From NCBI RefSeq assembly GCF_021474425.1, contig NZ_JAKEIP010000012.1, positions 1 to 64,000 on the forward strand: a stretch of 64,000 nucleotides of DNA. Reading direction: 5' to 3'. The position numbers were made by a program, and so were the translations under genes. This stretch comes from Streptomyces muensis. GTDB taxonomy: Bacteria; Actinomycetota; Actinomycetes; Streptomycetales; Streptomycetaceae. The stretch's first letter is position 1. Each line of letters begins with the position of its first letter. Below the pieces are notes generated by a model. It had not been told where the DNA came from. It saw only the letters and a list, made by a program, of their open reading frames with translations, and ran no database searches. Positions 26,128 to 57,542 of this stretch are shown here, piece after piece.

Positions 26128-28728
26128 TTGCATGACCACGTGGCAACACGTCCCCAAACCCCGCTTCTGGACGCCCTGTTGGAGCCTCGGGCCGTGTTCC
26201 GCGGCATGCCGGGCGAGCCGCCGGACCCGGAGATCTGGCAGCGCGCTGCGCGGGCCGCGGCCGGGCTGCACGGGCTCGGGCAGTGGGGCGAACTCGCCGG
26301 GTTCTACGGCGATCTGGCCGATGACGCGTGGCGGGAGGGTCGGTATCGGCGGAGCCTTCGGTTGCTGCTGGCCGCCCGCGTGGCCGCGGTCCGGGCGGGC
26401 GACGGCGCGAAGGTCGTCGCCGTCACGAGCCTGCTGGCCATGCGTCACCGGCTGCGGGGCGGCTTCGTGGTCGCCGAGGCGTGGGACCACGCCCAACTCG
26501 CCCGCCCCCTCGACGAGTCGATGGCCAGGGCGCACGCGGTGGCCCGGCGTGAACTGGCCACGCTGCGGGGGCTGACCGGGGGGTACCAGGAGGGCATCGC
26601 CCAGTGCGAGCAGGCGCTCGAGGTGTGCCGCGCCTTCGCTGACCGGCCCGGCATGGCGCTGATCCACGTACAGGTTCTGCTCGAACGCAGCCTGGGCGAA
26701 CGGCTGTCGGGACGGCTGGACCTCGCGCTCGCGACGCTCGCCGAGGCACGGAACCTGGCCGAGGCGCACGAGAGTGAGGTGAACGATCTGACGCGCGGCA
26801 TGATCGCCGTACGCGAGGCGCGGCTGTACGTCATGGTCGGGGATCCGCGGACGGGCCTTGCCGCCTATCTGCGCGCCGAGTCCCTGTTCACCGGGGTGAG
26901 CGCGGACAACCTCGTGATCACCCGGATTTCCCGGATCGACTGTCTGAGGGCGCTGGGACGCACCGCGGACGCCCTGGCACTGGCGGACGAACTGGCCGAG
27001 GAGTGCGAACGGGCCGGTGAGCACGCCCGGCTCGGACAGGTTCTGCTGGAGCGGGCCGACATCCAGTACGCGACGGGGGACTTCGCGGGCGCGGCCGCCA
27101 CGGCACGGCGGGCCGGGCAGGAGCGGCAGGACGACGACTCCCTCGAAGCGCTGCGCTGGCGGCGGCACCTGGCGCGTGCCCTGCTCGCCTCCGGCGGGGA
27201 CCAGCGCGAGGCCGCAGCGCATCTGGGCGTGATCCTCACGACCGCCTGCCGCCCGGACCGCCAGGATCTGGCGCGCACCTGGCAGGCCCTCCACGAGGCG
27301 CTGTCGATCTCCGACGAGTCGGTGCTGCCCTCCGCCGTCTGGTTCGCCGCCGGACGCGGCGCGCTGACCGGCGCGGAACTGCAACGCGACCTGCTGAGCG
27401 CCCCTGAGGCCCGCTGGGGTGTGCACGCGGAGCGCGAGGAGGTGTACGCCGCGGCGATCCGGCTGCACTGCGCCGTCGCGGATCACGGCGCCGTGGCCCA
27501 GGTGATGGAGCTGGGCCGGGCCGATGTGCTCAACCGGGTGCTGCTGGACGGGAGTTCACTGACCCGCCCGCTGACCGGGCTGCCGCTGCTGCCGCCGCCG
27601 GCCGACGACGGCCGGCTGGACGACCTGTTCGCGCTGGGCTCGGACGTGGCGCGGGTGCTGGCGGGCGGGAGCGCCGACGAGATCGGTGTCCTGCCCCTGC
27701 CGGGCGGGCTGCCGTCACCCGAGGACCTGGACGGGCTCGCGGACGTGGTCGTGATGGTGCAGCTGGGCCACGGCACCGCGGGCTGGTGGTCGTCGACGGC
27801 CGTGCGGGAGCGGGGTGGCCGGTGGCGCGCGACGGTGGAGCCGGTGCCTGAGCGGCTGGACGCGTGGATCGGGCGGATGGCCGCCGGTACGCCGCTGCCG
27901 CCACGGGGCGTGGCACGGGCCGTGTGGCAGGCGCTGGGCGAGTTGCTGATGCCCGCCCCGGAGATCTGGCAGGGCACGCCCGAAGTCCCGCGGTCCGTCG
28001 TGATCTGCCCGGATCCCCGTCTGTGGCATGTGCCCTACGGTGCCCTGCTGCGCGGCGAGACCGCGCTGGTGGACGTGGCGGAGGTGACGCTGACGCCGAG
28101 CCTGCGCACCCTGTGCCTGGTCCGTGACCGGGCCCGGCAGGCCGGCCCGGCGGCACGAGGTGCGGGGACGGCGGCGCGAGGCGTGGGGACGGCGGGCAGC
28201 CTCTTGGACGACGCGTTGCCCGCGCACTCGCGTGAGCGGGCGGCGTTGGACGCCTGGCCCGGCGGGCACCGGCCGCTCGGCGCCCTGGCTGAAGTGGCGG
28301 GGCTCCCGGACCCGGCCCTGCTCTACGTCAGCGGTCACGGCGCCGCCCCGCGCGACTCGCGCGACTCGGGTGACTCGGTGCTGGGTCCGTCCGGGGTCAC
28401 CCTGGACTCGCTGGCCACCCTGCCGCTGCCCGAACTGCTGCTGCTCGTGGGCTGCTGGAGCGCCACCGCGGCCAGCCGCTACGGGCGGGACCCGTTGAGT
28501 CTGGCCGTCGGAGGCCTTCTCGGGGGCGCGCGGACGGTCGTCGCCGGTGTCGGCCGGATCGGTGAGCAGGCCGCCGCCCGTATCGCCGGGGAGACCCTGC
28601 GGTACGTCGCCGAGGGGATGCCTGCGCGGTCGGCGCTGCGGGCCGCCGCGCGCGCCCTGCGCGACCGGCATCCCGAACTCGGCCCGTACGACTGGGCCGG
28701 CATGTGTGTGATGGGGGCCGGAGACTGA
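26128..28728 (+). CDS. TPR-CHAT caspase-like protease
   Basis: 866 residues from the TTG start; GTG 26140 is equally possible and no ribosome site decides. Residues 1 to about 450 are helical TPR-like repeats (GLHGLGQWGELAGFYGDLAD, EGRYRRSLRLLLAARVAAV, YATGDFAGAAATARRAGQE). The C-terminal 320 residues are a CHAT domain: LYVSGHGAA holds catalytic His737 and LLLVGCWSATA holds catalytic Cys776, then LSLAVGGLLGGARTVVAGVGRIG. CHAT proteases are caspase relatives, several of which act in bacterial immunity or programmed death. Divergent from the domain-fused glycosyltransferase and convergent, by 7 bases, with a membrane-anchored unknown. Confidence 0.8.
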   Translation: MHDHVATRPQTPLLDALLEPRAVFRGMPGEPPDPEIWQRAARAAAGLHGLGQWGELAGFYGDLADDAWREGRYRRSLRLLLAARVAAVRAGDGAKVVAVTSLLAMRHRLRGGFVVAEAWDHAQLARPLDESMARAHAVARRELATLRGLTGGYQEGIAQCEQALEVCRAFADRPGMALIHVQVLLERSLGERLSGRLDLALATLAEARNLAEAHESEVNDLTRGMIAVREARLYVMVGDPRTGLAAYLRAESLFTGVSADNLVITRISRIDCLRALGRTADALALADELAEECERAGEHARLGQVLLERADIQYATGDFAGAAATARRAGQERQDDDSLEALRWRRHLARALLASGGDQREAAAHLGVILTTACRPDRQDLARTWQALHEALSISDESVLPSAVWFAAGRGALTGAELQRDLLSAPEARWGVHAEREEVYAAAIRLHCAVADHGAVAQVMELGRADVLNRVLLDGSSLTRPLTGLPLLPPPADDGRLDDLFALGSDVARVLAGGSADEIGVLPLPGGLPSPEDLDGLADVVVMVQLGHGTAGWWSSTAVRERGGRWRATVEPVPERLDAWIGRMAAGTPLPPRGVARAVWQALGELLMPAPEIWQGTPEVPRSVVICPDPRLWHVPYGALLRGETALVDVAEVTLTPSLRTLCLVRDRARQAGPAARGAGTAARGVGTAGSLLDDALPAHSRERAALDAWPGGHRPLGALAEVAGLPDPALLYVSGHGAAPRDSRDSGDSVLGPSGVTLDSLATLPLPELLLLVGCWSATAASRYGRDPLSLAVGGLLGGARTVVAGVGRIGEQAAARIAGETLRYVAEGMPARSALRAAARALRDRHPELGPYDWAGMCVMGAGD

Positions 28729-44142: not shown

Positions 44143-46848
44143 ATGGCGAATCGTTTCGCCCGTTTTCCGCACCTCTCGGTGAAACGCCTGATCAGCAAGG
44201 GCACGCGAAGCGTGGCCGGGCAGGTGTTGATCTTCCAGGTGGCCCTGGTCGTGCTGCTCGTGGCCTGCGGGGTCTTCGCCCTCATCCTCCAGTCGGAGCG
44301 GGACAACAACGCCGAGGCAAGGCGCCGCTCCACAGCCGTGGCACAGACGTTCGCGCACGCACCGGGCGTCCTCGCGGCGTTGCGGACCCCGGATCCGAGC
44401 AGGATCCTCCAGCCGCTCACGGAGGCGGCACGCAAGGCGGCCGGCGTCGACTTCATCGTGGTCATGGACACCGAGGGCATCCGGTACACGCACCCCTTGC
44501 CGGACCGGATCGGGAAGCGGTTCGTGGGCGAGATCGGGCCGTCCCTGGAGGGCCGGACGTACGTGGAGAGCGTCAACGGCCCGCTCGGTCGCGAGGTGCA
44601 GTCCACGGTCCCGATCGAGAACGCCGACCGCGAGGTGGTGGGCCTCGTCTCGGCCGGGATGAAGGTCAAGAACGTCGAGAGCCAGCTGGCCCGGCAACTG
44701 CCGATCATCCTGGGCGCCGGAGCCGGGGCGCTCGTGCTGTCCACCGGTGTGACGGCCCTGGTGGGCAGGCGGCTGCGACGGCAGACGCACAGCCTGGCCC
44801 CGGCCGAGATGAGCCTGATGTACGAGCACCACGACACGGTGCTCCACTCCGTCCGGGAAGGCGTGCTGATCGTCGCCGCCGACGGACGGCTGATCCTGGC
44901 GAACGACGAGGCCAGACGGCTGCTGGAGCTGCCCTCGGACGTCGAGGGGCGGCCCGTCGCGGAACTGCCGGGCCTCGATCCCGGCACCCGGGAGCTGCTC
45001 GCCTCCGGGCGCGAGGCCACCGACGAGGTGCACCTCGCGGGAGAGCGGTTGCTCGCGGTCAACCAGCGGCCCACGGACCGCGAGGGAGACCCCAGGGGAA
45101 CGGTGGTCACGCTGCGCGACTCCACCGAGCTCCAGGCCGTGACCGGCAGGGCGGAGGTGGCACGGGAGCGGCTCAGGCTGCTGTACGACGCCGGACTGCG
45201 CATCGGCACTTCCCTGGACGTGCTGCGCACCGCGGGCGAGCTGGCGCGGGTTCCCGTTCCCCGCTTCGCGGACTTCGTCACCGTGGACCTGGCCGACGCC
45301 GTCCTGCACGGCGAGGAGCCGGCCCCGACCGCGACGGACATGCGACGGGCGGCCGTGTGCGGCATCCGGGACGACCATCCGCTCTCCGCGCAGGGCCGGC
45401 TCTTCGACTATCTGCCCTCCACGCCCCAGGCGCGCGGCTACGGCAGTGGCAGCTCCCAGCTGGTGAGCGACCTGCCGACCGCCACGGGCTGGCGGGTGCA
45501 GGACCCCGAGCGGGCCAGGGCGATCATCGACTACGGCATCCATTCCCTGATCACCGCCCCCATCCAGGCCCGGGGCGTGGTGCTGGGCATGGCCAACTTC
45601 TGGCGTGCGCGGCAGCACGAGCGTTTCAACGAGGAGGATCTGTCACTGGCGGAGGAGCTGGTGGCCCGTGCCGCGATCAGCATCGACAACGCCCGCCGCT
45701 TCACTCGTGAGCACACCCTGGCGGTCACCCTCCAGCGCAGCCTGCTGCCGCAGGCCATGCCCGCGCAGAACGCCCTCGACATCGCCTACCGCTATCTGCC
45801 CGCCCAGTCGGGTGTGGGCGGCGACTGGTTCGACGTGATCCCCCTGCCGGGGAGCCGGGTGGCACTGGCCGTCGGCGACGTGGTCGGCCACGGTCTGCAC
45901 GCCGCCGCCACGATGGGCCGGCTGCGGACCGCGGTGCACAACTTCTCCGCCCTCGATCTGCCGCCCGACGAGCTGCTGAGCCATCTGGACGACCTCGTCG
46001 GGAGCATCGACCAGAAGGAGGCCGCGGAGAGCGCGGCGGGCGTCGTGGGGGCCACCTGCCTGTACGGGATCTACGACCCCGTGACGCGCCGCTACGTCGT
46101 GGCGCGTGCCGGGCATCTGGCGCGGGCGCTGGTCCGGCCCGACGGATCCGTCACCTTCCCGGACGTGCCGGCCGGCCCGCCCCTGGGCCTGGGCGGCATG
46201 CCCTTCCAGACCGCGGAGGTGTGCCTCGCGGAGGGAACCCAGCTCGTGCTGTACACCGACGGCCTCATCGAGGACCGCAGACGCGACCTGGACGTGGGAC
46301 TGGAACTGCTGCGCGAGGCGCTCACCGGCCACCCCGGCCGGCCGCCCGAGGAGACCTGCCAGGACGTGCTGGACAGTCTGCTCCCCCGCCGTCCCAAGGA
46401 CGACGTCGCCCTCCTCGTCGCCCGCACACGGGCCCTGCCGCCCGACCGGATCGCCGAATGGGACGTGCCGGCGGATCCGGCCGCCGTCTCGGGGATGCGC
46501 GACGCCGTGTCCGAACGCCTCGAAGCGTGGGGCCTGTCGGAGTTCGGCTTCACCATGGAACTCATCCTCAGCGAACTCATCACCAACGCCATCCGCTACG
46601 GCACCCCGCCCATCCACGTACGGCTGATCCGCGACCGCACCCTGATCTGCGAGGTGGCCGACGGCAGCAGCACCTCACCGCATCTGCGGTACGCGGCGAC
46701 GACGGACGAGGGCGGCCGGGGCCTGTTCCTGGTGTCCCAGATGGCCGAGCGCTGGGGCACCCGCTACACCCCCCAGGGCAAGGTCATCTGGGCCGAACAG
46801 GCCCTCCCCGAGGCCCTCCAACAGCCCGTTCCAGCTGCCCCTTGGTAG
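44143..46848 (+). CDS. Multidomain SpoIIE phosphatase with sensor, PAS, GAF and kinase domains
   Basis: 901 residues. A transmembrane helix at about 26-48 and another near 185-205 bracket an extracytoplasmic Cache/CitA-like sensor (VDFIVVMDTEGIRYTHPLPDRIGKRFVG). Then come a PAS domain (LHSVREGVLIVAADGRLILANDEARRLLE), a GAF domain (residues about 345-525), a PP2C/SpoIIE phosphatase (GGDWFDVIPL, VGDVVGHG, LVLYTDGLIEDRRRD, PKDDVALLVAR) and a C-terminal anti-sigma-type ATPase (ILSELITNAIRYG, EGGRGLFLVSQMAERWG). It joins phosphatase and anti-sigma-like kinase in one protein, a typical Streptomyces signalling plan. The citrate-sensor-like N-terminus suggests a dicarboxylate signal, unproven. Confidence 0.88.
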   Translation: MANRFARFPHLSVKRLISKGTRSVAGQVLIFQVALVVLLVACGVFALILQSERDNNAEARRRSTAVAQTFAHAPGVLAALRTPDPSRILQPLTEAARKAAGVDFIVVMDTEGIRYTHPLPDRIGKRFVGEIGPSLEGRTYVESVNGPLGREVQSTVPIENADREVVGLVSAGMKVKNVESQLARQLPIILGAGAGALVLSTGVTALVGRRLRRQTHSLAPAEMSLMYEHHDTVLHSVREGVLIVAADGRLILANDEARRLLELPSDVEGRPVAELPGLDPGTRELLASGREATDEVHLAGERLLAVNQRPTDREGDPRGTVVTLRDSTELQAVTGRAEVARERLRLLYDAGLRIGTSLDVLRTAGELARVPVPRFADFVTVDLADAVLHGEEPAPTATDMRRAAVCGIRDDHPLSAQGRLFDYLPSTPQARGYGSGSSQLVSDLPTATGWRVQDPERARAIIDYGIHSLITAPIQARGVVLGMANFWRARQHERFNEEDLSLAEELVARAAISIDNARRFTREHTLAVTLQRSLLPQAMPAQNALDIAYRYLPAQSGVGGDWFDVIPLPGSRVALAVGDVVGHGLHAAATMGRLRTAVHNFSALDLPPDELLSHLDDLVGSIDQKEAAESAAGVVGATCLYGIYDPVTRRYVVARAGHLARALVRPDGSVTFPDVPAGPPLGLGGMPFQTAEVCLAEGTQLVLYTDGLIEDRRRDLDVGLELLREALTGHPGRPPEETCQDVLDSLLPRRPKDDVALLVARTRALPPDRIAEWDVPADPAAVSGMRDAVSERLEAWGLSEFGFTMELILSELITNAIRYGTPPIHVRLIRDRTLICEVADGSSTSPHLRYAATTDEGGRGLFLVSQMAERWGTRYTPQGKVIWAEQALPEALQQPVPAAPW

Positions 46849-47767: not shown

Positions 47768-48550
47768 TCAGCACGGTCTGCGCCAGGTGTCCAGTTCCGG
47801 CTTCTTCCGCATCGACGACAGGCGCAGTTCGCGGGCCGTCGGGCAGAACCGGGCCGTGGGCTCCGCGTACTCCACGTGGAAGACGGCCTTGTCCGCCGAG
47901 ATGAACGGCTCCAGCAGCTCGCACTCGTCGTACTGGGCGCACTCCTCGTTGACCGCGAAGTCGAAGTCGTCCAGCAGGTGCGGGATCTGGGCCAGGTCGT
48001 TCTTGAGGCCGACGGCGAGACCACGCTCGTGCGCGAGGGCGGCGATCATGCGGTTGTACCGGAGCTGGTCGCGCGCCGTGAGCGGGAAGCCGGTGTCGTT
48101 GCCGTAGCCCTCGACGAGGTCCGGTTCCACCGCGTCGAAGCCCTTGTCGCGGCACATGTCGAAGCGGCGTTCCATCAGGGGCCGCAGGAGCGAGAGGCGG
48201 CGGATGTCCAGCCAGCGTTCGCCTTGCCAGCCGTTGGGCTTGCCGAGGACCGAGCGTGGGAAGGCGCGTCGGTCGGGGCGGAAGTCCTCCCAGGCGCCGA
48301 CGTTGACGTAGCAGATCACCTTGCGACCGTCGCGGTGCAGGCGTGCCACGTCGTCGGCGGAGTTCTCGAATCCGTCGATGTCGTAGACGGGTACGTCGAC
48401 GGACGGGTCGACCCTGCCGTCGAGCTGCCACTGCCAGGCCAGCCCGGGGCGCGGTTGCCAGCGCTCGCCGGGGGCAGGGGCGTCGGAGCAGGCGGCCAGG
48501 GTGGTCAGGGTCAGCAGGGTGGCTACGACGGCCGAGGCCAACCGCCTCAC
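47768..48550 (-). CDS. GH114 endo-alpha-1,4-polygalactosaminidase-like lipoprotein
   Basis: 260 residues. The first 21 form a lipoprotein signal (VRRLASAVVATLLTLTTLAAC, lipidated Cys21), so the enzyme is tethered outside the membrane. The rest is a TIM barrel typical of GH114: WQWQLDGRVDPSVDVPVYDIDGFENS, VICYVNVGAWEDFRPD, GFDAVEPDLVEGYGNDTGFPLTARDQLRYNRMIAALAHERGLAVGLKND and FAVNEECAQYDEC, with Asp/Glu in VEPD and NEEC as likely catalytic acids. The family includes fungal Ega3, which cuts poly-galactosamine. Last gene of the polysaccharide operon; its GTG overlaps the previous stop (GTGA). I infer trimming of the operon's polymer. Confidence 0.85.
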   Translation of the reverse strand: MRRLASAVVATLLTLTTLAACSDAPAPGERWQPRPGLAWQWQLDGRVDPSVDVPVYDIDGFENSADDVARLHRDGRKVICYVNVGAWEDFRPDRRAFPRSVLGKPNGWQGERWLDIRRLSLLRPLMERRFDMCRDKGFDAVEPDLVEGYGNDTGFPLTARDQLRYNRMIAALAHERGLAVGLKNDLAQIPHLLDDFDFAVNEECAQYDECELLEPFISADKAVFHVEYAEPTARFCPTARELRLSSMRKKPELDTWRRPC

Positions 48551-49209
48551 CGGTCCGCCTCCGCCAGTGCGGGCGTCAACCGCGACCAGGGGTTGGGCAG
48601 GTCGCCGGTGACCGGTCCGCACACTCCCGCGCCCCGTTCCCCCGCCGTTCGCATGGCGAGCGGCACGAGCGGTTCCGGTACGCCGTAGACCAGGTGGCAC
48701 AGCCGCTCGGCGGGCAGCCGCTCGGTCCAGGCGGGGCGGCTGAAGTCCGACACGTATCGCGACCAGGGGCCTTCGAAGGTGACGGTCAGGTCGGCGAGCC
48801 GGGCGTAGCCGGGCGCGGGGTGGACGCCGGGGTTGAGCACGACCGTGGCGGCGCCGAGCCTGCGGGCGGCGCGGACCAGGCGACGGCAGTCGGGCAGTCC
48901 GTGCGGTGCCGCCGTCACCTGGTCCAGGAAGCAGCCGTCGACGGCGTACCACTCCTGGTGCCGGCGCAGGTCCTCGGTGACCTGTGCGGGGTCGCGGGCG
49001 CCGTAGTCGGTGTCGACGTAGCCCAGCACACGGGCTCCCGCTGTGCGCAGTGCCCGGGCGGCCGTGGCGAACGCCGGGTCCGGGGCGCCGCCGGGGCCGT
49101 TCGCCGGGTTCAGTACGACGGCGTAGGTGCGGGTGGCGCAGGTGATGAGCCGGTGCCAGGCACCGGGATCCTCGGCCGGATGCACGTACAGCGGGATCAG
49201 CAGGCTCAC
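48547..49209 (-). CDS. Spherulin-4 family (GH135/Sph3-like) glycosidase
   Basis: 220 residues from a GTG that overlaps the preceding stop. It begins LLIPLYVHPAEDPGAWHRL, then AVVLNPANGPG, VLGYVDTDYG, YAVDGCFLDQVT (Asp91, Asp96) and LTVTFEGPWSRY (Glu146), the order of acidic residues seen in spherulation-specific family 4 proteins. The fungal member Sph3 hydrolyses galactosaminogalactan. No signal peptide is visible, and upstream in-frame sequence does not supply one, so it is either cytoplasmic or exported in another way. Its pairing with the GH114 gene is strong evidence for an alpha-galactosaminide-containing polymer. Confidence 0.8.
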   Translation of the reverse strand: MSLLIPLYVHPAEDPGAWHRLITCATRTYAVVLNPANGPGGAPDPAFATAARALRTAGARVLGYVDTDYGARDPAQVTEDLRRHQEWYAVDGCFLDQVTAAPHGLPDCRRLVRAARRLGAATVVLNPGVHPAPGYARLADLTVTFEGPWSRYVSDFSRPAWTERLPAERLCHLVYGVPEPLVPLAMRTAGERGAGVCGPVTGDLPNPWSRLTPALAEADR

Positions 49210-50120
49210 CGCGCCGGTACCCCCTCGACGGGGCGGGCGGCCGCCCACAGATCCGCCACCGACGCGTCGAGGGTGCGCGTCGGCGTCCAGCCGAGGGCGT
49301 CGCGCGCGGCGGTGATGTCCGAGCACTGCCAGGACACTTGGGCGGACCGGGCGGATCCGGCTGCCCCCGCCTCGACGATCCGGCCCCGGAAGCCGGCCGC
49401 GTCCGCGAGGGCGCGCATCAGGTCGCGGACCGGGCGGGCGTCGCCGCCGCCGATGTTCAGCACGGGCGGCAGCGGTCCGGGTGCCGTGACCGCCAGTCGG
49501 ACAGCCCGCGCCAGGTCTCGTGCGTCCACGAAGTCGCGGTGCGCGGACAGGTCGCCGAGCCGCAGCTCCGCGTCCGGGTCGTCCCCGGCGTCGGCGAGCA
49601 GGCGCGCCACCCGGCCCGGCAGCCCGGTGGGCGGGGCGCCCGGGCCGACCGGGTTCCCCACCCGCAGCACCACCGCGTCCAGCCCGGACGCGGTCACGGC
49701 CACCGTGCCCGCCAGCTTGGTCGCGCCGTACGGGCCGGCCGGCCGGGTCGGCGCCGACTCCGTCACCCGTACTCCTGGTTCGGTGGGCCCGTACTCGGCG
49801 GCCGAGCCCAGATGGACCAGCCGGGCCCCGGGCGCCGCCTCCCGCAGGGCAGCGCACAGCGCGGCGGGCCCGCGGGCGTTGGCCTCGGCGAGGGTGACGG
49901 CGTCGCCGCCGGTCGCGCCCGCGCAGTTGACGACGGCGTCGGGCGCGGCCTCGGCGAGCGCCGCCGCCAGGGCCCGCGGGCGGTCGGCGGCGAGGTCCAC
50001 GGTGACGTCGGCGGCGGGCGAGCGGCCGGCGAGGAGGACCCGCGTGTCCGGCCGGGCGCGCAGGTGCTCGGCGACGTGCGTGCCCAGATAGCCGGTGGCG
50101 CCGAGTACGAGGATGCGCAT
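49206..50120 (-). CDS. NAD-dependent sugar epimerase/reductase
   Basis: 304-residue extended SDR protein. Rossmann motif VLGATGYLGTHVAEHL, a catalytic-site stretch VHLGSAAEYGP and PYGATKLAGTVAV (Tyr-x3-Lys), then RVGNPVGPGAPPTGLP and HRDFVDARDLARAVRLAV. It could reduce the 4-keto sugar made by the dehydratase encoded three genes upstream, or epimerise the sugar nucleotide; the sequence does not decide. Start ATG 50120 is six bases from the nucleotidyltransferase stop, and its own stop overlaps the spherulin-4 start. Clearly part of the polysaccharide operon. Confidence 0.78.
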   Translation of the reverse strand: MRILVLGATGYLGTHVAEHLRARPDTRVLLAGRSPAADVTVDLAADRPRALAAALAEAAPDAVVNCAGATGGDAVTLAEANARGPAALCAALREAAPGARLVHLGSAAEYGPTEPGVRVTESAPTRPAGPYGATKLAGTVAVTASGLDAVVLRVGNPVGPGAPPTGLPGRVARLLADAGDDPDAELRLGDLSAHRDFVDARDLARAVRLAVTAPGPLPPVLNIGGGDARPVRDLMRALADAAGFRGRIVEAGAAGSARSAQVSWQCSDITAARDALGWTPTRTLDASVADLWAAARPVEGVPAR

Positions 50121-50126
50121 GGCCCC

Positions 50127-50840
50127 TCAGGCCCCCTTGAGCAGCAGTGACTTACGGCTGGTGAACTCGGCGTTGGCCCGGTCGTAGTCGTCGGGGCGGC
50201 CGATGTCGAGCCAGTAGCCGTCGAACTCGTAGGCGTGCGGCGGGCGTTCGGCGGCGAGCAGGTCCATCACCAGTTCGTCGAAGCCGAGCGGCAGCCCGGG
50301 CGTGTAGTCGTCGAGGGTGGTGCGGGAGACACCATAGACGCCCATGGAGACCCGGTAGTCGATGCTGGGCTTCTCGGTGAAGGCGACCACCCGGCTGGCG
50401 TCGGTGGTGAGCACGCCGAAGTCGATGTGGACCTTGCGGGCGTAGGTGGCGATGGTCAGGGGGGTGCCCGACGCCTCGTGCGTACGCAGGACGTCGGCGT
50501 AGTCGAGGTCGGTGAGGACGTCGCCGTTCATGACAAGGAAGTGTTCGGGCAGCCGGTCGCGCAGGGTGAGCAGCGGGCCCATGGTGCCGAGCGGGCTCTC
50601 CTCGGCGGCGTAGTCGACTTTCAGGCCCCACTGGGTGCCGTCGCCGACGTAGGCGCGGATGATCTCGCCCAGGTGGCCGATGGCGATGGTGCAGCGGGTG
50701 AAGCCGGCGGCGGACAGCTGGCGCAGCACGATCTCCAGGATCGCGTGCTGGTCGCCGATGGGGACGAGCGGCTTGGGCAGCGCGGTGGTGTACGGCCGTA
50801 GCCGGACGCCCTTTCCACCGGCCAGGATCACTGCGTGCAT
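50127..50840 (-). CDS. Sugar nucleotidyltransferase
   Basis: 237 residues. The N-terminus MHAVILAGGKGVRLRPYTTALPKPLVPIGD is the full nucleotidyltransferase signature, with AGGKGxRLxP and KPLxPxG. Later residues EHFLVMNGDVLTDLDY (metal-binding Asp), VAFTEKPSIDYRVSMGVYGV and YWLDIGRPDDYDRANAEF are typical. It activates a sugar-1-phosphate to an NDP-sugar; relatives include glucose-1-phosphate and N-acetyl-sugar types. GCAGGAGG precedes the ATG. Position between dehydratase and reductase genes suggests that it supplies a donor for the PelF-like transferase. Confidence 0.82.
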   Translation of the reverse strand: MHAVILAGGKGVRLRPYTTALPKPLVPIGDQHAILEIVLRQLSAAGFTRCTIAIGHLGEIIRAYVGDGTQWGLKVDYAAEESPLGTMGPLLTLRDRLPEHFLVMNGDVLTDLDYADVLRTHEASGTPLTIATYARKVHIDFGVLTTDASRVVAFTEKPSIDYRVSMGVYGVSRTTLDDYTPGLPLGFDELVMDLLAAERPPHAYEFDGYWLDIGRPDDYDRANAEFTSRKSLLLKGA

Positions 50841-50871
50841 GGCGTACCTCCTGCGATACGTGCCGGTCGGG

Positions 50872-51873
50872 TCAGATGTTGTAGATGCCGGTCTTGTAGC
50901 GGGCCAGGTTCGCCGGGTCGGTGAACCACCGCGCGGTGCGCGCGAGTCCCTCCTCCAGCGTGCTCGCGGGCCGCCAGCCGGTCGCCGTGGTCAGCCGGGT
51001 GGCGTCGGCGACGAGCCGCATCACCTCGGAGGCCGCGGGCCGCAGACGCGCGGAGTCCTCCTGGACGTCGAGCGGGGCGTCCATCACCTTGCCGATCAGC
51101 GCGACCAGGTCGCCGACGGAGATCTCACCGCCGGTCCCGGCGTTGAAGGTGCGGCCCACGACCTGCTCGGCCGCGGCCGTGCCGACCGCGAGGAACGCCC
51201 GCGCGGTGTCCTCGACGAAAGTGAAGTCGCGGGTGGGCCGCAGATCGCCGAGGGTGATGGTGCGCTGCCCGGCCGCCACCTGGCCGATGACGGTGGGGAT
51301 GACGGCGCGCATCGACTGGCGCGGGCCGAAGGTGTTGAACGGCCGCAAGGTCACCACGGGCGTGCCGAAACTGGCGTGGTAGCTGTCGGCCAGCCGGTCC
51401 CCGCCCGCCTTCGAAGCGGCGTACGGCGACTGGGTGTTGATGGGGTGGTCCTCGGTGATCGGCACGGTCCGCGCGGTGCCGTACGTCTCGCTGGTCGAGG
51501 TGTGCACCAGCCGCGGCGTGCCGAGCGCGCGCACCGCCTCCAGCACGTTGAGCGTGCCGGTGACGTTGGTGTCCACGTAGCTGTGCGGGGCCTGGTAGGA
51601 GTACGGGATCGCGATCAGCGCGGCGAGGTGGTAGGCGCAGTCGGCGCCGTCGAGCAGGCCGCGCACCGAGCCGGGGTCGCGTACGTCGCCGAGGACGATC
51701 TCGACCTGGTCCAGGACGTCGGAGGGCAGGGTCTCCAGCCAGCCGTAGGAGGAGAAGGAGTTGTACTGGGCCATGGCCCTCACGCGGTGGCCGGAGGCGA
51801 CGAGCGCCTCGGTGAGATGCGAGCCGATGAAGCCCTCGGCTCCGGTGACGGCGGCGAGCGGTGCGGAGGTCAA
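50872..51873 (-). CDS. LegB-like NDP-N-acetylhexosamine 4,6-dehydratase
   Basis: 333 residues from TTG 51873, with GAAGGGA upstream. Extended SDR with VTGAEGFIGSHLTEALV, MAQYNSFSSYGWLETLP, LVHTSTSETYGTARTVPITEDHPI, SPYAASKAGGDRL (Tyr/Lys), LRPFNTFGPRQSMRAVIPT and TRDFTFVEDTARAF. The MAQYNSF...GWL pattern is shared with LegB-type UDP-GlcNAc 4,6-dehydratases, so the product would be a 4-keto-6-deoxy hexosamine. That would make the polymer contain a deoxy-amino sugar, which differs from classical galactosaminogalactan. Shares a transcript with its neighbours (94 bases after the membrane gene). Confidence 0.8.
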   Translation of the reverse strand: MTSAPLAAVTGAEGFIGSHLTEALVASGHRVRAMAQYNSFSSYGWLETLPSDVLDQVEIVLGDVRDPGSVRGLLDGADCAYHLAALIAIPYSYQAPHSYVDTNVTGTLNVLEAVRALGTPRLVHTSTSETYGTARTVPITEDHPINTQSPYAASKAGGDRLADSYHASFGTPVVTLRPFNTFGPRQSMRAVIPTVIGQVAAGQRTITLGDLRPTRDFTFVEDTARAFLAVGTAAAEQVVGRTFNAGTGGEISVGDLVALIGKVMDAPLDVQEDSARLRPAASEVMRLVADATRLTTATGWRPASTLEEGLARTARWFTDPANLARYKTGIYNI

Positions 51874-51967
51874 CTCTTGGTCCCTTCGTCGTGGTCGTCG
51901 GACGGGGGACCCGGCGCGGACGGGCGCGGGTCTGCGGTCCGATGGGTCGTGCGGGTGGTGCGCGTGG

Positions 51968-53383
51968 TCAGGAGTGCGGTGAGGGCCGGCCGAGCAGGCG
52001 GATCGCGACGGCCGCCAGACAGACGGCGGCCACGCCGCAGGCCCAGGGCAGTACGGCCTGCCCTGGTGGCAGGTCCGTCAGGAGCACCGCCCCGGCTGTG
52101 CCGGCCGCGGCGAGGCAGAGCACGGCCGGTGGCCAGGCCACCCCGAACGCCTGGAGCAGCAGGGCGGTCCACAGGACGGCCGCGAGCAGGAGCGGTGTGG
52201 CCGGGTCGGAGCCGGTGAGCAGTGCCGCGGGCAGCAGCAGGGACAGGTAGCAGGTCAGGCACAGGCCGAGGACGGCGGCGGAGCGCAGCAGGAATCCGGC
52301 CGGGGTCGCGCTCACCCGCAGCGCGGCGACCGACCAGCCGCGGTAGCGGTACAGCAGCCACTCGGCCGGGCCCATGCTCAGCGTCAGGGCGATCACCGCG
52401 TACGGCTGCCGGCGGCCCTCCAGCATGACGAGCACGGCGGCGGCGAGCCCGAACAGCCCGTACGGCAGGGACGCGCGAAGCGGCGGCCGCGCGGCGTCGG
52501 GAGCGGCCGGTCCGGCGCGCCCCGGCCGCAGGACCCACCCGGCGGCGCCTAACGTGGCCGAGAATGCCAACAGCGGCAATCCGACCCGCAGTTCCGGTCC
52601 CGGCTCCCACCATGGCAGCACCGCGGCGCCCACGATCAGCGGGCTCAGCGCGGCCAGCAACAGCCGCTCCCGGGCCAGGACCAGCAGCACGCTCGCGCCG
52701 GCCAGGTACAGCGACTGGGCGGCCGCCACCGCGAGCGCCACCGGGCCGCCCCCGGGGAGCGCGGCGAGGGCCGTGGCCGCCGCCGCGCCCAGCAGGGACC
52801 CGGTCAGCAGCGTGCCGGATGCCTCCCGGCGCCCGGTCACCAGGCGCAGATGCGCGCGGTGGCCCAGTGCCTGCCCCCACGCCCAGGAGGCGATGCCCGC
52901 CACGATCAGCACGGGGGCGTGCCGTTCGACGGCCCACAGGGGCGCGGTGAGCAGGTAGGCCAGGGCCGGCAACGCGAACAGGACGCCGCGCAGGAGGCAG
53001 CGCACGGTGTCGGGCCGCCACGGGTCGGCGGCGCGGGGCGGCTCGGGGAACGTCCGGGGCACCCGCTCGTACAGCGCTGTCGCCAGGGAGAAGAGGTTCG
53101 GGTGGCCGTACCGCTCCTTGATCACCGAGGCGGACAGGCCCTCGGCCTCCAGCAGCGCCGCCACCTCGTAGGGATGGACGGCGGGTCCGATGGCGTCGGC
53201 GAGTTCGGCGGCCAGGGTACTGACCGCCTCCTCGTCGGGGCCGCGACCGGGCAGTCGGATCGCGAGCGTGGCGTCGTCCAGGGCCCAGCGCGGGCGGCGG
53301 CGCGGCGGGCGGGGTTCGGCCAGCCGCAGGGCGAGGGTGTCCTGTCCCGCGTCGCCGGGTTCGAGGGATATCGGGCCGCTCAT
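51968..53383 (-). CDS. Polytopic membrane protein of the polysaccharide operon
   Basis: 471 residues. Residues 1-125 are cytoplasmic and charged (RPPRRRPRWALDDATLAIRLPG, then a helical SVIKERYGHPNLFSLATALYERV), followed by about ten to twelve transmembrane helices to the C-terminus. ATG 53383 overlaps the stop of the PelF-like gene (ATGA), so the two are probably made as partners. In Pel systems PelF works with the membrane protein PelG; this protein sits in the PelG place, but I see no clear sequence signature of PelG. I propose a polymer export or assembly role. Confidence 0.7.
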   Translation of the reverse strand: MSGPISLEPGDAGQDTLALRLAEPRPPRRRPRWALDDATLAIRLPGRGPDEEAVSTLAAELADAIGPAVHPYEVAALLEAEGLSASVIKERYGHPNLFSLATALYERVPRTFPEPPRAADPWRPDTVRCLLRGVLFALPALAYLLTAPLWAVERHAPVLIVAGIASWAWGQALGHRAHLRLVTGRREASGTLLTGSLLGAAAATALAALPGGGPVALAVAAAQSLYLAGASVLLVLARERLLLAALSPLIVGAAVLPWWEPGPELRVGLPLLAFSATLGAAGWVLRPGRAGPAAPDAARPPLRASLPYGLFGLAAAVLVMLEGRRQPYAVIALTLSMGPAEWLLYRYRGWSVAALRVSATPAGFLLRSAAVLGLCLTCYLSLLLPAALLTGSDPATPLLLAAVLWTALLLQAFGVAWPPAVLCLAAAGTAGAVLLTDLPPGQAVLPWACGVAAVCLAAVAIRLLGRPSPHS

Positions 53384-54921
53384 CCGGTCAGACTCCCCGT
53401 GCCGGTGACCGCCGGGCCGCTGACCCCCGAAGCACTGACCGTCGACGCGGGCAGCACGACTCTGGCGGGCAACTCCGCCTTTCCTGCGGCCAGTTCGTGG
53501 TAGATGGCGCGGAAGGTGTCGATGGTCTGGCGCAGGGTGAACTGTTCGATGACCCGCAGCCGGGCCGCCTCGCCCATGGCCCGGCGCCGGACGGGATCCC
53601 CAAGCAGTTCCAGCGCGGCGGCGGCCATCGCGGCCGGGTCGCGCGGCGGCACCACGAGCCCGGTGTCGCCGACGGCTTCGCGCACGCCGCCGACGTCGGT
53701 GGAGACGGTCGCCCGGCCGCACGACATGGCCTCGATCAGCGTGAACGGGAAGCCTTCGCTGATGCTGGACAGCATCACCACGTTCCCGGCCGCGTAGGCG
53801 TCCTTGATGTCGTCGACGCGGCCTTCGAAGGTCACCGCGTCGCCGTGCCCCAGCTCGGCGGCGAGGGCTTCGCAGCGCTCCCGGTAGGCCTCGCCGCCCC
53901 GGGGTGTGCCGCCGAACAACCGCAGGCGGACGTCCGGCAGTCGGTGCCGGACGAGAGCGAAGGCGCGGATCAGGGTCTCCAGGTCCTTGATCGGGTCGAC
54001 CCGCCCGGCCCAGCTCAGGGTGAGGGTCCCCGGCTCCGGTCCGGCCGGTGGGAAGGCGGCGGGGTCGACGCCGTTGTAGACGGTGCGGATCGCCCCGGGG
54101 TCGGCGCCGCCCTGTTCCTCCCACAGCCGGTTGTAGCGGTTGCCCGGCGTGATCAGCGCCGCCTTGCGGTAGCTCTCCTCCGCCAGCAGCCGGAAGAAGC
54201 CCAGGATCACCGCCTTGACCGGCCAGCGGTAGGGCGCGGTGCGATAGCCGAGGTAGCGTTCGCGCAGGTAGACGCCGTGCTCGGTGAGCAGCAGCGGAAC
54301 GCCGTGCCGTTCGCGGGCGGCCAGCCCCGGCAGGACGGCGACGCCTCCGCTGACGGCGTGCGCGACGCCCTGCCGCGGGGGCGGTGCGGCCAGCGGGCGC
54401 AGCGCGTGTTCGAGCAGCGCGGTGGCGGTGAGCGCGTCGTGCAGGGTGGGCCGCGCCTCGCGCACGGCCAGCCCGGGACGCGTCCATACGGCGGTCAGGA
54501 TGCTGATCGCCGTGTCGCCCCGGAGCAGCGCGCTGAGTTCGCCGCTCTCCGCGGCCCGGGCCAGGGTGTGCAGTGCGGGTGCGAAGCCGTGCTCGGCGCC
54601 GGGGTCGACGAGCGCCGTCAGGAACTGCTCGTAGGCGTCGGCGAGCCGCCTGCGGGACCGGCCGCGGGGCGGGCGGCCCTCGGGTGCGGCGCCCCACATG
54701 GGGACGGACCGGACGCCGCTGACATGGTCGGGCAGGTCCCACACGATCGGCTCCCGTCCGGTGCCGGTGACGGCGATGACGTCGAACTCGATGTCGGGCA
54801 TGCCGGTGACGAGCTGGTCGCACCAGACGCTCACACCGCCATGACTGTGTGGGTAGGTGCCTTCGGTCAGCAGGGTGACGCGCGCGCTGTGGTTGCGTCG
54901 CGCGCCGTGGTGAACGTGCAT
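53380..54921 (-). CDS. PelF-like GT4 glycosyltransferase
   Basis: 513-residue cytosolic GT-B enzyme. The N-terminal VTLLTEGTYPHSHGGVSVWCDQLVTGMPDIEF is characteristic of PelF proteins. A long insertion (about residues 90-200) separates the two Rossmann folds; TEHGVYLRERYLGYR, TLSWAGRVDPIKDLETLIRAF and SISEGFPFTLIEAMSCGRATV (E-x7-E donor motif) follow. PelF polymerises UDP-hexosamines into the Pel polymer in other bacteria. Start ATG 54921 is 48 bases after the deacetylase gene. The C-terminus (about 35 residues) is a low-complexity Ser/Thr/Val tail. Confidence 0.85.
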   Translation of the reverse strand: MHVHHGARRNHSARVTLLTEGTYPHSHGGVSVWCDQLVTGMPDIEFDVIAVTGTGREPIVWDLPDHVSGVRSVPMWGAAPEGRPPRGRSRRRLADAYEQFLTALVDPGAEHGFAPALHTLARAAESGELSALLRGDTAISILTAVWTRPGLAVREARPTLHDALTATALLEHALRPLAAPPPRQGVAHAVSGGVAVLPGLAARERHGVPLLLTEHGVYLRERYLGYRTAPYRWPVKAVILGFFRLLAEESYRKAALITPGNRYNRLWEEQGGADPGAIRTVYNGVDPAAFPPAGPEPGTLTLSWAGRVDPIKDLETLIRAFALVRHRLPDVRLRLFGGTPRGGEAYRERCEALAAELGHGDAVTFEGRVDDIKDAYAAGNVVMLSSISEGFPFTLIEAMSCGRATVSTDVGGVREAVGDTGLVVPPRDPAAMAAAALELLGDPVRRRAMGEAARLRVIEQFTLRQTIDTFRAIYHELAAGKAELPARVVLPASTVSASGVSGPAVTGTGSLTG

Positions 54922-54969
54922 CGATGTGCTCCACGGACGAGGTGCGGGCGGGGGTGCCGGTCGCGCCGG

Positions 54970-57096
54970 TCAACTCCCCGTGGGAGAGACGGGCTCGGCC
55001 ACGCCCTCGGGCACCCGGGCGTCCGGCGCCGGGGCGGTGACCGGCGCGGACGCGCCCGTGCCGGTGCCAACTGAAGGGGCGGCGGACTGCGGCAGGGTGA
55101 GAGTGAGCGCGGTGGCGGTCGCGGCGGTCCACGCGGACCGTTCACCGGCGTACGCCTCGCCGAAGGCGGAGCCGTCCCGTGTGGTGCCCTCGGGCATCGT
55201 GGCGGGGACGTCGACGCCGGCGGGGCTCTCGACGGTGACGGTGTCGCCGATCCGGTAGGCGGTGACCTGACCGGCGTTCACCGCGCTCCGCCATGAGGCG
55301 CGCCGCTTCAGCTCGTTGCCGATGTCCTTCATTCTCAGGTTGACCAGCGGTGTGTTCTGCGCGAACAGCGTGCCGTAGGTGTCGAGGACGCCGTCCAGGA
55401 CCGGGTAGGCGATGCGGTCCTCGGCCAGGTTGGACTGGTGGATGAAGTGCGGCTTGGGGTCGTTGCCCAGGACGTGGCCGAGGGCGATCTGCCGTTCCAG
55501 GGGCACGATGTGCCGGTCGTAGCCCGTCGCGGTGTCGAGCGGCTCGGGCAGGCAGGTCGTGGTGTCCGGGTTGTCCTCGCAGATGCCGCTGCCGCCCTGG
55601 GCGCGGCTGGTGTAGATCCAGTTGTACTCGTCGACCTGCTCGGCGGCGCGGCCCGCGTTGTAGAAGACGTTCATCGGATAGCGCGGGATGGTGGTGGCGG
55701 GGCCGACCTGCCGCTGGTCGGGTTCGCGGGAGTTGTCCGAGGCGAGCCAGGAGACGCCGGTGTCGGCGAGGGCGAGCGCCAGGTTGGGATTGTCCGTGGG
55801 CTGCTGCGGCAGCACCCGGAGCCCGGAGTGCTCGCCGGTCACCAACTCGTCCTCGTCCAGCGGGAGTCCGGCCGACCGGCCCCAGGCGCTGTTGTGGGCG
55901 ATCTCGTCGGCGACGTCGGTGCGGCTGACCCACTTGGTGCTGCCGTCGGCGTTGGTGGCGCACCGCCAGGGCACCACGGAGGTGTCCTGTTCGCAGCCGA
56001 GGAAGGCGTGCGTGTAGGTGTGGTTGATCCAGCGGAACTCGGCCCGCTCGGCGAGGAACCGGTCGGCGAGCGGGTCGGCGCCGTTGTTGTCCTCGCGGTG
56101 GTCGACGCTGCCGGCGGCGTTGTAGGCGAGGTCGAGGGTGAAGCCGCGCTCGCGCTGCCAGGTGACGGCGTGGTCGACGTCGGCGGCCGTCATCCTGATG
56201 GGGTCGGGTGTGGCGTTCGGGTCCGTGCAGTCCACGTCGCCGGGAGTGCAGTTGAGCGTGGAGTTCCAGCGGTCGTCGGCCGCGAGGACGTCGTCGACGT
56301 GGACGGCGAAGTAGTTGCGGGAGGCGCCCAGATGGACCCCGCCGGTCATCCACTCGACGATGCCGCGGGCCAGCAGCCGGAACTGCTGCTGGTACTGGTT
56401 GTAGACGAAGGTGACGACGAGTTCACGCCGCCCGTCGTGCCGGTACTCCCCCACCAGCGAGCCCTGCTTGGCGGTGCCCGGGATCGGCGCCTGCACGTAC
56501 GGGGTGAAGTCGGCACCGGCCATCGGGGTCGACAGATAGGCGTAACTCTCGCCCACGGTCGGCGAGTTGTCCTCGAAGGGCACCGGCCCGTCGAGGTAGC
56601 CGAAGGCGCCCGCCCGCCCGGCGTCGGTCACCTGGGCCCGCACGCCGTCGACGCTGCCCGAGTACCCGCCGTACACCGGGTACTGCAGCCCGGTCTCGGG
56701 GCGGGCGTAGGTGTAGGCGTCGACCTGCGGGATGTCGTAGGTCTGCTCGTACGCCGCCAGGGCGGCCATCTCCGGCGAGTTCGCCGGGAACGGGTTGTCG
56801 TTGGGCAGCACGACGGCCTGGAACCTGGCGCGGTCCCGGCCGTCCACGGTGTCCGCGAGGTAGCCGGCGTCGATCACCGGGCGGTCCGGCCGCGTGAGGT
56901 CGATCTCCGTGTACGGCGTTCCCGCGGTGTCCAGTTCGGCGGCGATGGCGTCGGTGGCCGGGCCGCCGTCGCTGACGACGAGCACCCGCAGATCGATCCG
57001 GGGCGGCGGCGGGTCCGCCGCGTGTGCGGCCGGTGCGCCGAGCGCCGCTATGAGCGCGCCCGTCGTGAGCAAGGTGGTGCCTAAGGTCCGCTTCAT
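54970..57096 (-). CDS. Secreted CE18/Agd3-like polysaccharide deacetylase
   Basis: 708 residues. Signal peptide 1-26 (MKRTLGTTLLTTGALIAALG, cleavage after AHA), so it is exported. An N-terminal beta-rich part (residues 30-255, RIDLRVLVVSDGGPATDAIAAEL) precedes the deacetylase domain with FAVHVDDVLAADDRWN (about 263-278, catalytic/metal Asp pair) and WINHTYTHAFLGC (about 356-368, metal-binding His-x4-His). This domain order matches the fungal Agd3 family (CE18) that deacetylates galactosaminogalactan. The C-terminal tail is Pro/Ala rich. ATG 57096 follows GGGAGGGG. First gene of the operon; the deacetylated polymer would be cationic and adhesive. Confidence 0.8.
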   Translation of the reverse strand: MKRTLGTTLLTTGALIAALGAPAAHAADPPPPRIDLRVLVVSDGGPATDAIAAELDTAGTPYTEIDLTRPDRPVIDAGYLADTVDGRDRARFQAVVLPNDNPFPANSPEMAALAAYEQTYDIPQVDAYTYARPETGLQYPVYGGYSGSVDGVRAQVTDAGRAGAFGYLDGPVPFEDNSPTVGESYAYLSTPMAGADFTPYVQAPIPGTAKQGSLVGEYRHDGRRELVVTFVYNQYQQQFRLLARGIVEWMTGGVHLGASRNYFAVHVDDVLAADDRWNSTLNCTPGDVDCTDPNATPDPIRMTAADVDHAVTWQRERGFTLDLAYNAAGSVDHREDNNGADPLADRFLAERAEFRWINHTYTHAFLGCEQDTSVVPWRCATNADGSTKWVSRTDVADEIAHNSAWGRSAGLPLDEDELVTGEHSGLRVLPQQPTDNPNLALALADTGVSWLASDNSREPDQRQVGPATTIPRYPMNVFYNAGRAAEQVDEYNWIYTSRAQGGSGICEDNPDTTTCLPEPLDTATGYDRHIVPLERQIALGHVLGNDPKPHFIHQSNLAEDRIAYPVLDGVLDTYGTLFAQNTPLVNLRMKDIGNELKRRASWRSAVNAGQVTAYRIGDTVTVESPAGVDVPATMPEGTTRDGSAFGEAYAGERSAWTAATATALTLTLPQSAAPSVGTGTGASAPVTAPAPDARVPEGVAEPVSPTGS

Positions 57097-57542
57097 GCGG
57101 TGCTGTCCCCTCCCAGGGCAGGGGTGAGTACGGCTCCGCTGAGCGGACGCACCCCCGCGCGTGACGCCGGCTTCCCCCTCGGCCACCGGTCGTCGACCCA
57201 TCCGTCGCGTCAAATAGTGATGTATCTGTGGAGCTTTCGTGCTCTTGCTGCGGAACCTGACGGAAAAACGCAGGTGCGCGACGCGGGGACGCTTGGCCCA
57301 GACCGCGTGGTCGACCGGGGATCACGGCCGCCCGCGGGTCCGGCGCAGGCCTCTGCCGTGCAGGTCGGAGCGGGAGTCACCGCATCCGCGGACGGACCGG
57401 GGTCGCCGACGTGGGCGCCACTGGTGTGGACCGGTGTGCCGGTCGGCCCCGGGCCGGTTTCAGGTCATCGGCATCACTCGCGGGCTGCCGGGCAGGTGAG
57501 ACGTTGTCCTGCTCAGTGGTCGACGCCTCAGGGGGAGCCTTC
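57097..57542. other. 446-base intergenic region between divergent operons
   Basis: It separates the deacetylase operon from the APC permease. A relatively AT-rich patch around 57208-57270 (with ATAGTGATGTATCTG and GGAAAAACGC) is the likeliest place for promoters, but I find no consistent -35/-10 pair for either strand. I looked for GEMM-type c-di-GMP and ydaO-type c-di-AMP riboswitch cores and did not see them. No convincing small gene is present. Confidence 0.5.

Follow-up and report, generated by a model that had tools for sequence, protein, structure and literature searches.

We describe and interpret an eight-gene operon on the minus strand of a 64,000-nucleotide stretch of Streptomyces muensis DNA (contig NZ_JAKEIP010000012.1; hereafter, the window) that probably encodes a membrane-linked exopolysaccharide machine of the Pel/galactosaminogalactan (GAG) kind. 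The operon is real and well conserved, and this reading is carried by gene content, family membership, the predicted folds of two of its proteins, active-site residues and conservation among relatives. The original prediction, which saw in these genes a galactosaminogalactan- or Pel-like operon, read the locus correctly in outline and was largely anticipated in print; as far as our searches show, the new elements are the type of putative exporter, a predicted cytosolic GH135 protein, a nucleotide-sugar cassette and a paralogous core locus.

Operon structure and conservation

All eight open reading frames (ORFs) lie where the original prediction had placed them, in one compact run (47768-57096) with overlaps or short gaps (48, -4, 94, 31, 6, -4 and -4 bases from the CE18 gene to the GH114 gene). 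Both flanks carry genes on the opposite strand, a SpoIIE-type phosphatase and an APH-like phosphotransferase on one side and an amino-acid permease on the other, in agreement with the predicted operon ends. Synteny across Streptomyces was assessed on 80 named loci, close relatives that represent the best of 542 matches, and the gene order was counted in the 64 of them with more than 7.7 kb downstream of CE18: the first seven genes are in order in all 64, and GH114 is also present in 50. Streptomyces sp. SirexAA-E (L160) has all eight genes; in S. griseofuscus DSM 40191 (L148) and S. lavendulae CCM 3239 (L158) seven were found, GH114 being the one not seen. The host genome has 9.9 Mb, and the operon CE18 shares 94-95% identity with its counterparts in S. 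caeruleatus and Streptomyces sp. AC550_RSS872. CE18 matches were obtained in 9 of 296 phylum genomes, 26 of 394 class genomes (five outside the genus) and 112 of 246 genus genomes.

Predicted deacetylase and hydrolase-family proteins

Family profile searches, which the original prediction had named among the tests that could refute it, left the deacetylase and both hydrolases within CE18, GH114 and GH135. A 36-row CE18 profile matched Agd3 (6nwz) at E 9.9e-25 over two stretches (38-279 and 391-671), which lie in the CBM87 part and in the CE/C-terminal part; a phmmer search of the PDB with the operon CE18 alone returned no match at E 1. Among the 36 aligned homologues, 20 match the Pfam family Agd3_CE at E 0.01 (best 7.6e-38). 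The AlphaFold model (pLDDT 87.8) has Agd3 6nwz as its top Foldseek match (E 2e-32, TM 0.68/0.72), followed by NDST1, a heparan sulfate N-deacetylase of human origin (E 9.5e-19), and, lower in the ranking, by Pseudomonas PelA (E 2.8e-8). By Foldseek and profile, the protein shows the three-domain fold of Agd3, with a CBM87-like domain and a CE domain. The residues of motifs CM1 to CM4, as named for Agd3 in PMC7229062, are present as D268 and D269 (CM1, HVDD), H359 and H363 (CM2, NHTYTH), R472 (CM3, PRYPMN) and H553 (CM4, HQSN); CM1, CM3 and CM4 are aligned to Agd3 by the profile, and CM2, which falls between both stretches, is assigned by motif. The N-terminus carries a Sec-type signal, judged by eye, and the operon CE18 is predicted to be a secreted deacetylase, with alpha-1,4-GalNAc oligomers as a possible substrate.

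Three stand-alone CE18 paralogues were also seen in other loci (L073, 4965-7046; L074, 4593-6713; L075, 11016-13073). Their metal motif is broken (VDG, NGTYDR), no PelF match was found in the stretch read around them, and they are possibly inactive binding proteins.

The GH114 protein matches PF03537 with 285 bits and Ega3 (6oj1) at E 1.6e-52, with the xPD and VNE motifs aligned, as befits an endo-alpha-1,4-galactosaminidase-type enzyme. A lipobox is present in the window protein and in 14 of 29 relatives, whose N-termini hinge on automatic start choice; signal and lipobox checks were crude hydropathy and pattern tests.

The GH135 protein has the spherulin-4 fold (PF12138, Spherulin4, 122 bits against a cut-off of 30.2; Sph3 5c5g, E 3.8e-13). 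Operon copies begin right at barrel strand 1, and 38 of 40 N-termini show no strongly hydrophobic stretch by a crude test, the maximum of the window protein being 0.7. The equivalents of Sph3 Asp-166 and Glu-222 are found in all 40 operon copies and that of Glu-167 in none (Q or R instead); in the window protein, D96 and E146 are kept and Glu-167 is replaced by Q97. The verified catalytic pair of Sph3 is an Asp and Glu-222 (PMC12054363), the Asp being printed there as Asp196, which we take as the Asp-166 of PMC10485009. This pair is kept, and activity is therefore possible, but on the cytosolic side, where the protein is predicted to reside. The Sph3-like hydrolase of the original prediction thus stands as to its family, and falls short in its missing export signal and its lost Glu-167. 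In one operon (L024, genome G204) no GH135 match was seen, and the operon instead holds a signal-less protein with GH114/GH191-like motifs, recognised by eye.

Predicted synthase and membrane protein

The transferase was confirmed as PelF-like by NF038011 (170.8 bits, cut-off 100) and DUF3492 (E 3.9e-62), with GT4 also matched. The eight genes nevertheless fall outside the definition of a Pel operon: the set has no PelG by sequence, and neither PelD (the c-di-GMP receptor) nor PelE was matched in Pfam at E 0.01 among the eight operon proteins. Separately, ARAGORN calls a tRNA-Tyr inside the PelF gene (window 54042-54134, plus strand), probably a spurious hit in GC-rich coding sequence.

The sequence of the adjoining membrane protein (MEM) gave no match in Pfam, NCBIfam or the PDB. 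Its AlphaFold model (pLDDT 85.5, with residues 1-46 unreliable) lays out a cytosolic N-domain at about 49-110, in which five short helices (51-107) precede a membrane part of about 12 helices (123-471). Comparison by VIA retrieved human MATE1 (Z 21.4, 329 residues, 4.9 A), WzxE (15.3) and MurJ (15.2), and among the 50 matches listed, 49 carry titles naming MATE, MOP, DinF, WzxE or MurJ, the other being 'protein A'. The fold, as modelled, is that of the MOP superfamily (MATE/MurJ/Wzx), and PelG too is a MOP-type protein. A search of the host genome for PelG found none over the cut-off, with one 26.5-bit match on contig C72 against a cut-off of 29. The identification of MEM as a diverged PelG was not supported (hhalign probability 0.2 percent, a weak test with two PelG sequences only).

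PelG exceeds its cut-off in two of 246 genomes of the phylum, G041 and G011, both of another class, in which it (PF16933, 470.6 and 459 bits) has PelF on one side and a CE18 gene on the other. The slot beside PelF that PelG holds in these genomes is the one that MEM fills in the operon, and PelG is the predicted Pel exporter (PMC13254593); by analogy of position, MEM most likely takes over the role of PelG. Over 43 rows, mean column identity is 71% in the N-domain of MEM and 65% in its membrane part. Because conservation of the N-domain equals or exceeds that of the membrane part, we propose that the N-domain may serve for docking.

Nucleotide-sugar cassette and operon types

Between MEM and the hydrolases lie genes for a LegB-like dehydratase, a nucleotidyltransferase (NTP) and a reductase of the SDR type (RED), which together form a cassette. 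We compared 40 hand-chosen loci out of about 150 ranked rows, many of them high-scoring, and named them type A or type B by cassette presence. LegB, NTP and RED occur in all 33 type A loci, with GH135 in 32 and GH114 in 24 within the available stretch; the eight type B loci with enough sequence hold the cassette in no case, GH135 in seven and GH114 in four.

LegB falls in the Pfam families Epimerase/GDP_Man_Dehyd and scores 445.2 bits with TIGR04180 (cut-off 475). The top PDB match of both LegB and RED is 6wjb, which we take to be PelX, a UDP-GlcNAc 4-epimerase. At the catalytic triad LegB aligns as T-S-E against T-D-E in DesIV and S-A-A in 6wjb, and TSTSETYG and YAASK are found in 33 of 33 relatives. 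According to Table 1 of PMC8987622, [ST]SE with Y-x3-K denotes GDP-mannose 4,6-dehydratase, and GalE has no such acid/base; in all 33, LegB carries this motif of GMD-type NDP-sugar 4,6-dehydratases. NTP matches PF00483 with 131 bits and lies far below every NCBIfam cut-off shown, the nearest model being mannose-1-P guanylyltransferase (138 bits, cut-off 440). RED matches PF01370 with 138 bits, and its nearest PDB entries are 6wjb and the GDP-6-deoxy-hexose reductases 6x3b (GDP-6-deoxy-mannose reductase) and 2pk3. It has no dehydratase acid, retains the active-site Ser, shows Y-x3-K in 33 of 33 copies, and has an Arg at the end of strand 2, a mark of NADP(H) enzymes, in the 14 copies inspected for it. 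A check for a C4-epimerase in the role of uge3 showed a dehydratase triad in LegB and, in RED, Ser and Y-x3-K yet an NADP-like Arg. In locus L180 (genome G703), NTP and RED form a single ORF of 581 aa beside a LegB of 67% identity. Taken together, the LegB triad, its RED and NTP neighbours and this fusion suggest that the cassette makes an NDP-6-deoxyhexosamine rather than plain GalNAc.

Fifteen genomes were picked as type B by identity and stop pattern, the locus itself being read in six of them, and LegB gave no match at E 1e-40 in 11 of the 15. As to the other four, the matches in G307 and G486 do not exceed 54% identity, and G182 and G413 hold a 90% form within a type A operon without CE18 (L193, L194). 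A type B CE18 lies elsewhere in these last two genomes, which hints that one deacetylase may serve both operons. On contig C324 the host genome itself has a type B CE18-PelF pair, and its contig C387 bears a membrane gene of type B. Loci outside the genus include L178 (G636), with the order CE18-PelF-MEM-like-GH135-GH114, MEM assigned by eye and no cassette, and L180 (G703), which has the cassette. In complete genomes, coordinates read by eye suggest that type A sits closer to the chromosome ends than type B. In-frame stops in type B CE18 were set aside as alignments that probably overrun the shorter protein's own stop, because the ORF in L015 is 677 aa long and the stop codon differs between genomes.

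The PelF tree, in which distant rows are long-branched and the L180 PelF is partial, separates the same loci (type B 100/97, type A 92/85), with A and B as sisters (96/98). Differences between type A and type B PelF at 30 positions were also inspected and gave no clean link to the cassette.

A core paralogue locus

A search with the MEM profile uncovered a third kind of locus, also present in the host, PelF-MEM-RED-GH135 (L227:6188-11230, contig C128; the same locus occurs in L228), adjoining a DUF3152 gene and a gene that is presumably MoeB/MoeZ-like. No CE18, GH114, LegB or NTP was found beside it. A core-type match is present in 15 of the 16 Streptomyces of the MEM profile draw, G460 being without, and PelF, MEM and RED are adjacent in 12 of 12 genomes with the core locus checked (13 loci). 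A search with the core GH135 matched in 59 of 61 genomes, G296 and G322 doing so only at type A/B level. In the 30 best-scoring copies of these 59 genomes, the Asp is kept in 29 and the acid/base Glu in none; given this loss in all 30 copies, the core GH135 is probably a pseudohydrolase.

Upstream region and feature coordinates

The closer type A loci share a conserved stretch of about 185 bases ahead of the CE18 gene, which has a TCACnATGTGACGCG core and, in front of the ribosome site, a GC hairpin; the type B upstream region differs. Rfam gave nothing at gathering level in this region, with one chance-level ribozyme match (E 1.8). An RNA switch was considered and rejected: the GGGGGTG/CACCCCT hairpin is conserved but shows no covariation (term +0.3, with two of 20 pairs changed on both sides) in a set of 21 of the 34 type A sequences that leaves out L048 and the divergent L061-L072. 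A link to c-di-GMP through a BldD box was likewise discarded, as the site occurs in none of the 34 type A upstream regions and one of nine type B regions has a loose palindrome.

Table 1. Features of the operon and its upstream region in the window
Feature	Coordinates	Strand	Basis
CE18 (Agd3-type) de-N-acetylase, 708 aa	54970-57096	-	PF25115, profile and Foldseek to 6nwz, motifs
PelF-type GT4 glycosyltransferase, 513 aa, predicted polymer synthase	53380-54921	-	NF038011, DUF3492, tree
MEM, MOP-superfamily membrane protein, 471 aa, predicted exporter in the place of PelG	51968-53383	-	AlphaFold, VIA
LegB-like NDP-sugar 4,6-dehydratase, 333 aa, triad T-S-E, Y-x3-K	50872-51873	-	TIGR04180, alignment
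NTP, sugar-1-phosphate nucleotidyltransferase, 237 aa	50127-50840	-	PF00483, NCBIfam, PDB, NTP::RED fusion in L180
RED, SDR, 304 aa, predicted NADP(H)-dependent 4-keto reductase	49206-50120	-	PF01370, nearest PDB entries
GH135 (spherulin-4) fold protein, 220 aa, predicted cytosolic	48547-49209	-	PF12138, Sph3 5c5g
GH114 endo-alpha-1,4-galactosaminidase-type lipoprotein, 260 aa, lipobox LAAC	47768-48550	-	PF03537, Ega3 6oj1
Leader/promoter region upstream of the CE18 gene	57097-57281	-	Alignment of type A upstream regions

Elsewhere in the window, the SpoIIE-type phosphatase just past the operon on the other strand (44143-46848) has sCache_3, PAS, GAF and HATPase domains, and a CHAT-domain protein with TPR repeats lies at 26128-28728.

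Proposed mechanism and alternative readings

From this evidence we infer a scheme of reactions, sugar, transport direction, docking and GH135 role. In the cytosol, NTP, LegB and RED would supply the system with a nucleotide sugar of its own, which is probably an NDP-6-deoxy-(N-acetyl)hexosamine. PelF would dock on the MEM N-domain and polymerise N-acetylhexosamine units, MEM would pass the chain outwards, and the cytosolic GH135-fold protein may act as a conserved partner of the synthase that binds or edits the chain. On the outer side, the secreted CE18 would strip some of the acetyl groups, which would render the polymer cationic and adhesive, and the lipoprotein GH114 would cut deacetylated stretches at the cell surface.

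The identity of the polymer is where the readings part. The partly deacetylated GalNAc-type chain of the original prediction is favoured by the CE18 and GH114 families, and the LegB-NTP-RED cassette indicates a different or an additional sugar. In its simplest form that prediction amounts to an ordinary Pel/GAG system, which we consider possible if somewhat unlikely, making partly deacetylated alpha-1,4-GalNAc from UDP-GalNAc and using the cassette for a minor side, cap or priming sugar. CE18 and GH114 do match enzymes acting on GalNAc/GalN polymers, type B loci have PelF, MEM, CE18 and mostly GH135 without a cassette, so that the core works without it, and the presumed epimerase 6wjb (PelX) tops the PDB matches of LegB and RED. 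Yet the dehydratase acid Glu of LegB corresponds to an Ala in 6wjb, no clear C4-epimerase is found among the operon genes, and the cassette is present in every type A operon read. It is improbable, in our estimate, that the operon makes a glycan of the cell wall or spore wall, kept at the surface, rather than a loose exopolysaccharide, with CE18 and GH114 tailoring it during hyphal growth or sporulation. Such a role would suit the core PelF-MEM-RED-GH135 locus, which is widespread in the genus and has neither CE18 nor GH114, and the membrane anchoring of the window GH114 as a lipoprotein; however, CE18-type deacetylation and endo-hydrolases have so far been tied to secreted adhesive polymers (PMC7229062), and CE18 is patchy in the genus, unlike a wall essential. 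A secreted CE18 and GH114 could also act on fungal GAG, but a scavenging system degrading fungal GalN polymers is very hard to credit in an operon that also encodes a synthase of the PelF type, the enzymes of a nucleotide-sugar cassette and a predicted cytosolic GH135, and in which no sugar importer or catabolic kinase is found among the eight genes.

Several observations weigh against the exopolysaccharide machine with a dedicated sugar that we prefer. The operon CE18, taken as a single sequence, scores 25.3 bits (E 9.5e-6) with Pfam Agd3_CE (PF25115), below the gathering cut-off of 27.6, a yardstick that is not CAZy's own criterion; Agd3 M666 is replaced by F; and the structural match to NDST1 would allow for other substrates. 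For MEM, MATE/MOP proteins top the Foldseek matches only weakly (best E 1.3e-3), and PelG (PF16933) was not matched in 43 MEM proteins at E 1. As to the cassette, RED occurs in the core paralogue without LegB and NTP and need not serve LegB, and its active-site Ser is Cys there in 11 of 11 readable copies (12 loci given), which weakens the cassette link. Genome G204 has NTP-RED yet no LegB match at E 1e-40, holding another T-S-E SDR beside a UDP-sugar dehydrogenase; the T-S-E motif occurs in UDP-xylose synthases too. Finally, in the PelF tree the cassette holders L024 (96/93) and L180 (84/60) fall outside A and B, so that the cassette does not go cleanly with PelF: it may be old and lost in type B, or gained more than once.

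A more specific form of the machine, which we put forward tentatively and regard as doubtful, is a separate lineage, within the Actinomycetota, of synthase-dependent systems for polysaccharides that combine PelF with a MOP exporter bearing its own PelF-docking N-domain and with a cytosolic GH135-fold subunit. The copy of that subunit in the Streptomyces core locus would be a pseudohydrolase, and the type found in the window would add a cassette for a de-N-acetylated 6-deoxyhexosamine polymer unlike Pel or GAG.

Attachment and pelleting of Streptomyces are industrially important, and the polysaccharides behind both are only partly known. According to the original prediction, the polymer could have a part in pellets, in attachment and in the spore coat. 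As conserved genes, the operon and its widespread core paralogue would make the choice between a GAG-like and a 6-deoxy polymer testable in bacteria. MEM would be a stand-in for PelG overlooked by PelG-based surveys, and Pel-like systems may be undercounted in actinobacteria.

Comparison with known systems

In the open-licence literature, to which our search was confined (subscription papers being outside its scope), no description of this Streptomyces operon was found. Operons of this general make-up have been published. Agd3 homologues are reported in 45 bacterial species, with a cytoplasmic glycosyltransferase and a multi-spanning membrane protein in all operons identified, GH114 as 'highly consistent' and spherulin-4 in some actinobacterial Agd3 operons (Bamford et al. 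2020, PMC7229062); the joint presence of these families is therefore not new. The Streptomyces operon shares all these components, and the section of that paper on these operons makes no mention of a MOP fold, a dehydratase cassette, a cytosolic altered GH135 or paralogous loci. Other papers place pel operons in actinobacteria and Rubrobacteria by means of PelF and PelG (PMC7112168, PMC7112194) and compare PelA with CE18 (PMC12022489).

With the pelDEADAFG operon of Bacillus cereus (PMC7112168, PMC13254593), the Streptomyces operon has in common PelF, a deacetylase, a galactosaminidase and a PelF-linked multi-span membrane protein. It differs in lacking PelD and PelE, and with them a c-di-GMP receptor encoded in the operon; in having CE18 where B. 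cereus has PelADA (CE26), and a MOP protein that is not PelG by sequence; and in the absence of a galE neighbour. The GAG cluster of Aspergillus (gtb3, agd3, ega3, sph3, uge3; PMC10485009) offers homologues in Agd3, Ega3 and Sph3, whereas in Streptomyces PelF and a separate membrane protein are present, the dehydratase cassette replaces the epimerase uge3, and the GH135 is without Glu-167 and predicted to be cytosolic. In the locus of G041 and G011, PelF and CE18 likewise belong to a single run of genes, and a GH135 gene lies close by on the opposite strand (one small gene intervening in L021), but the locus contains a true PelG (PF16933) and its GH135 (two copies) keeps the D-E pair. Within Streptomyces, the core locus (L227) shares with the operon the four-protein core PelF-MEM-RED-GH135.

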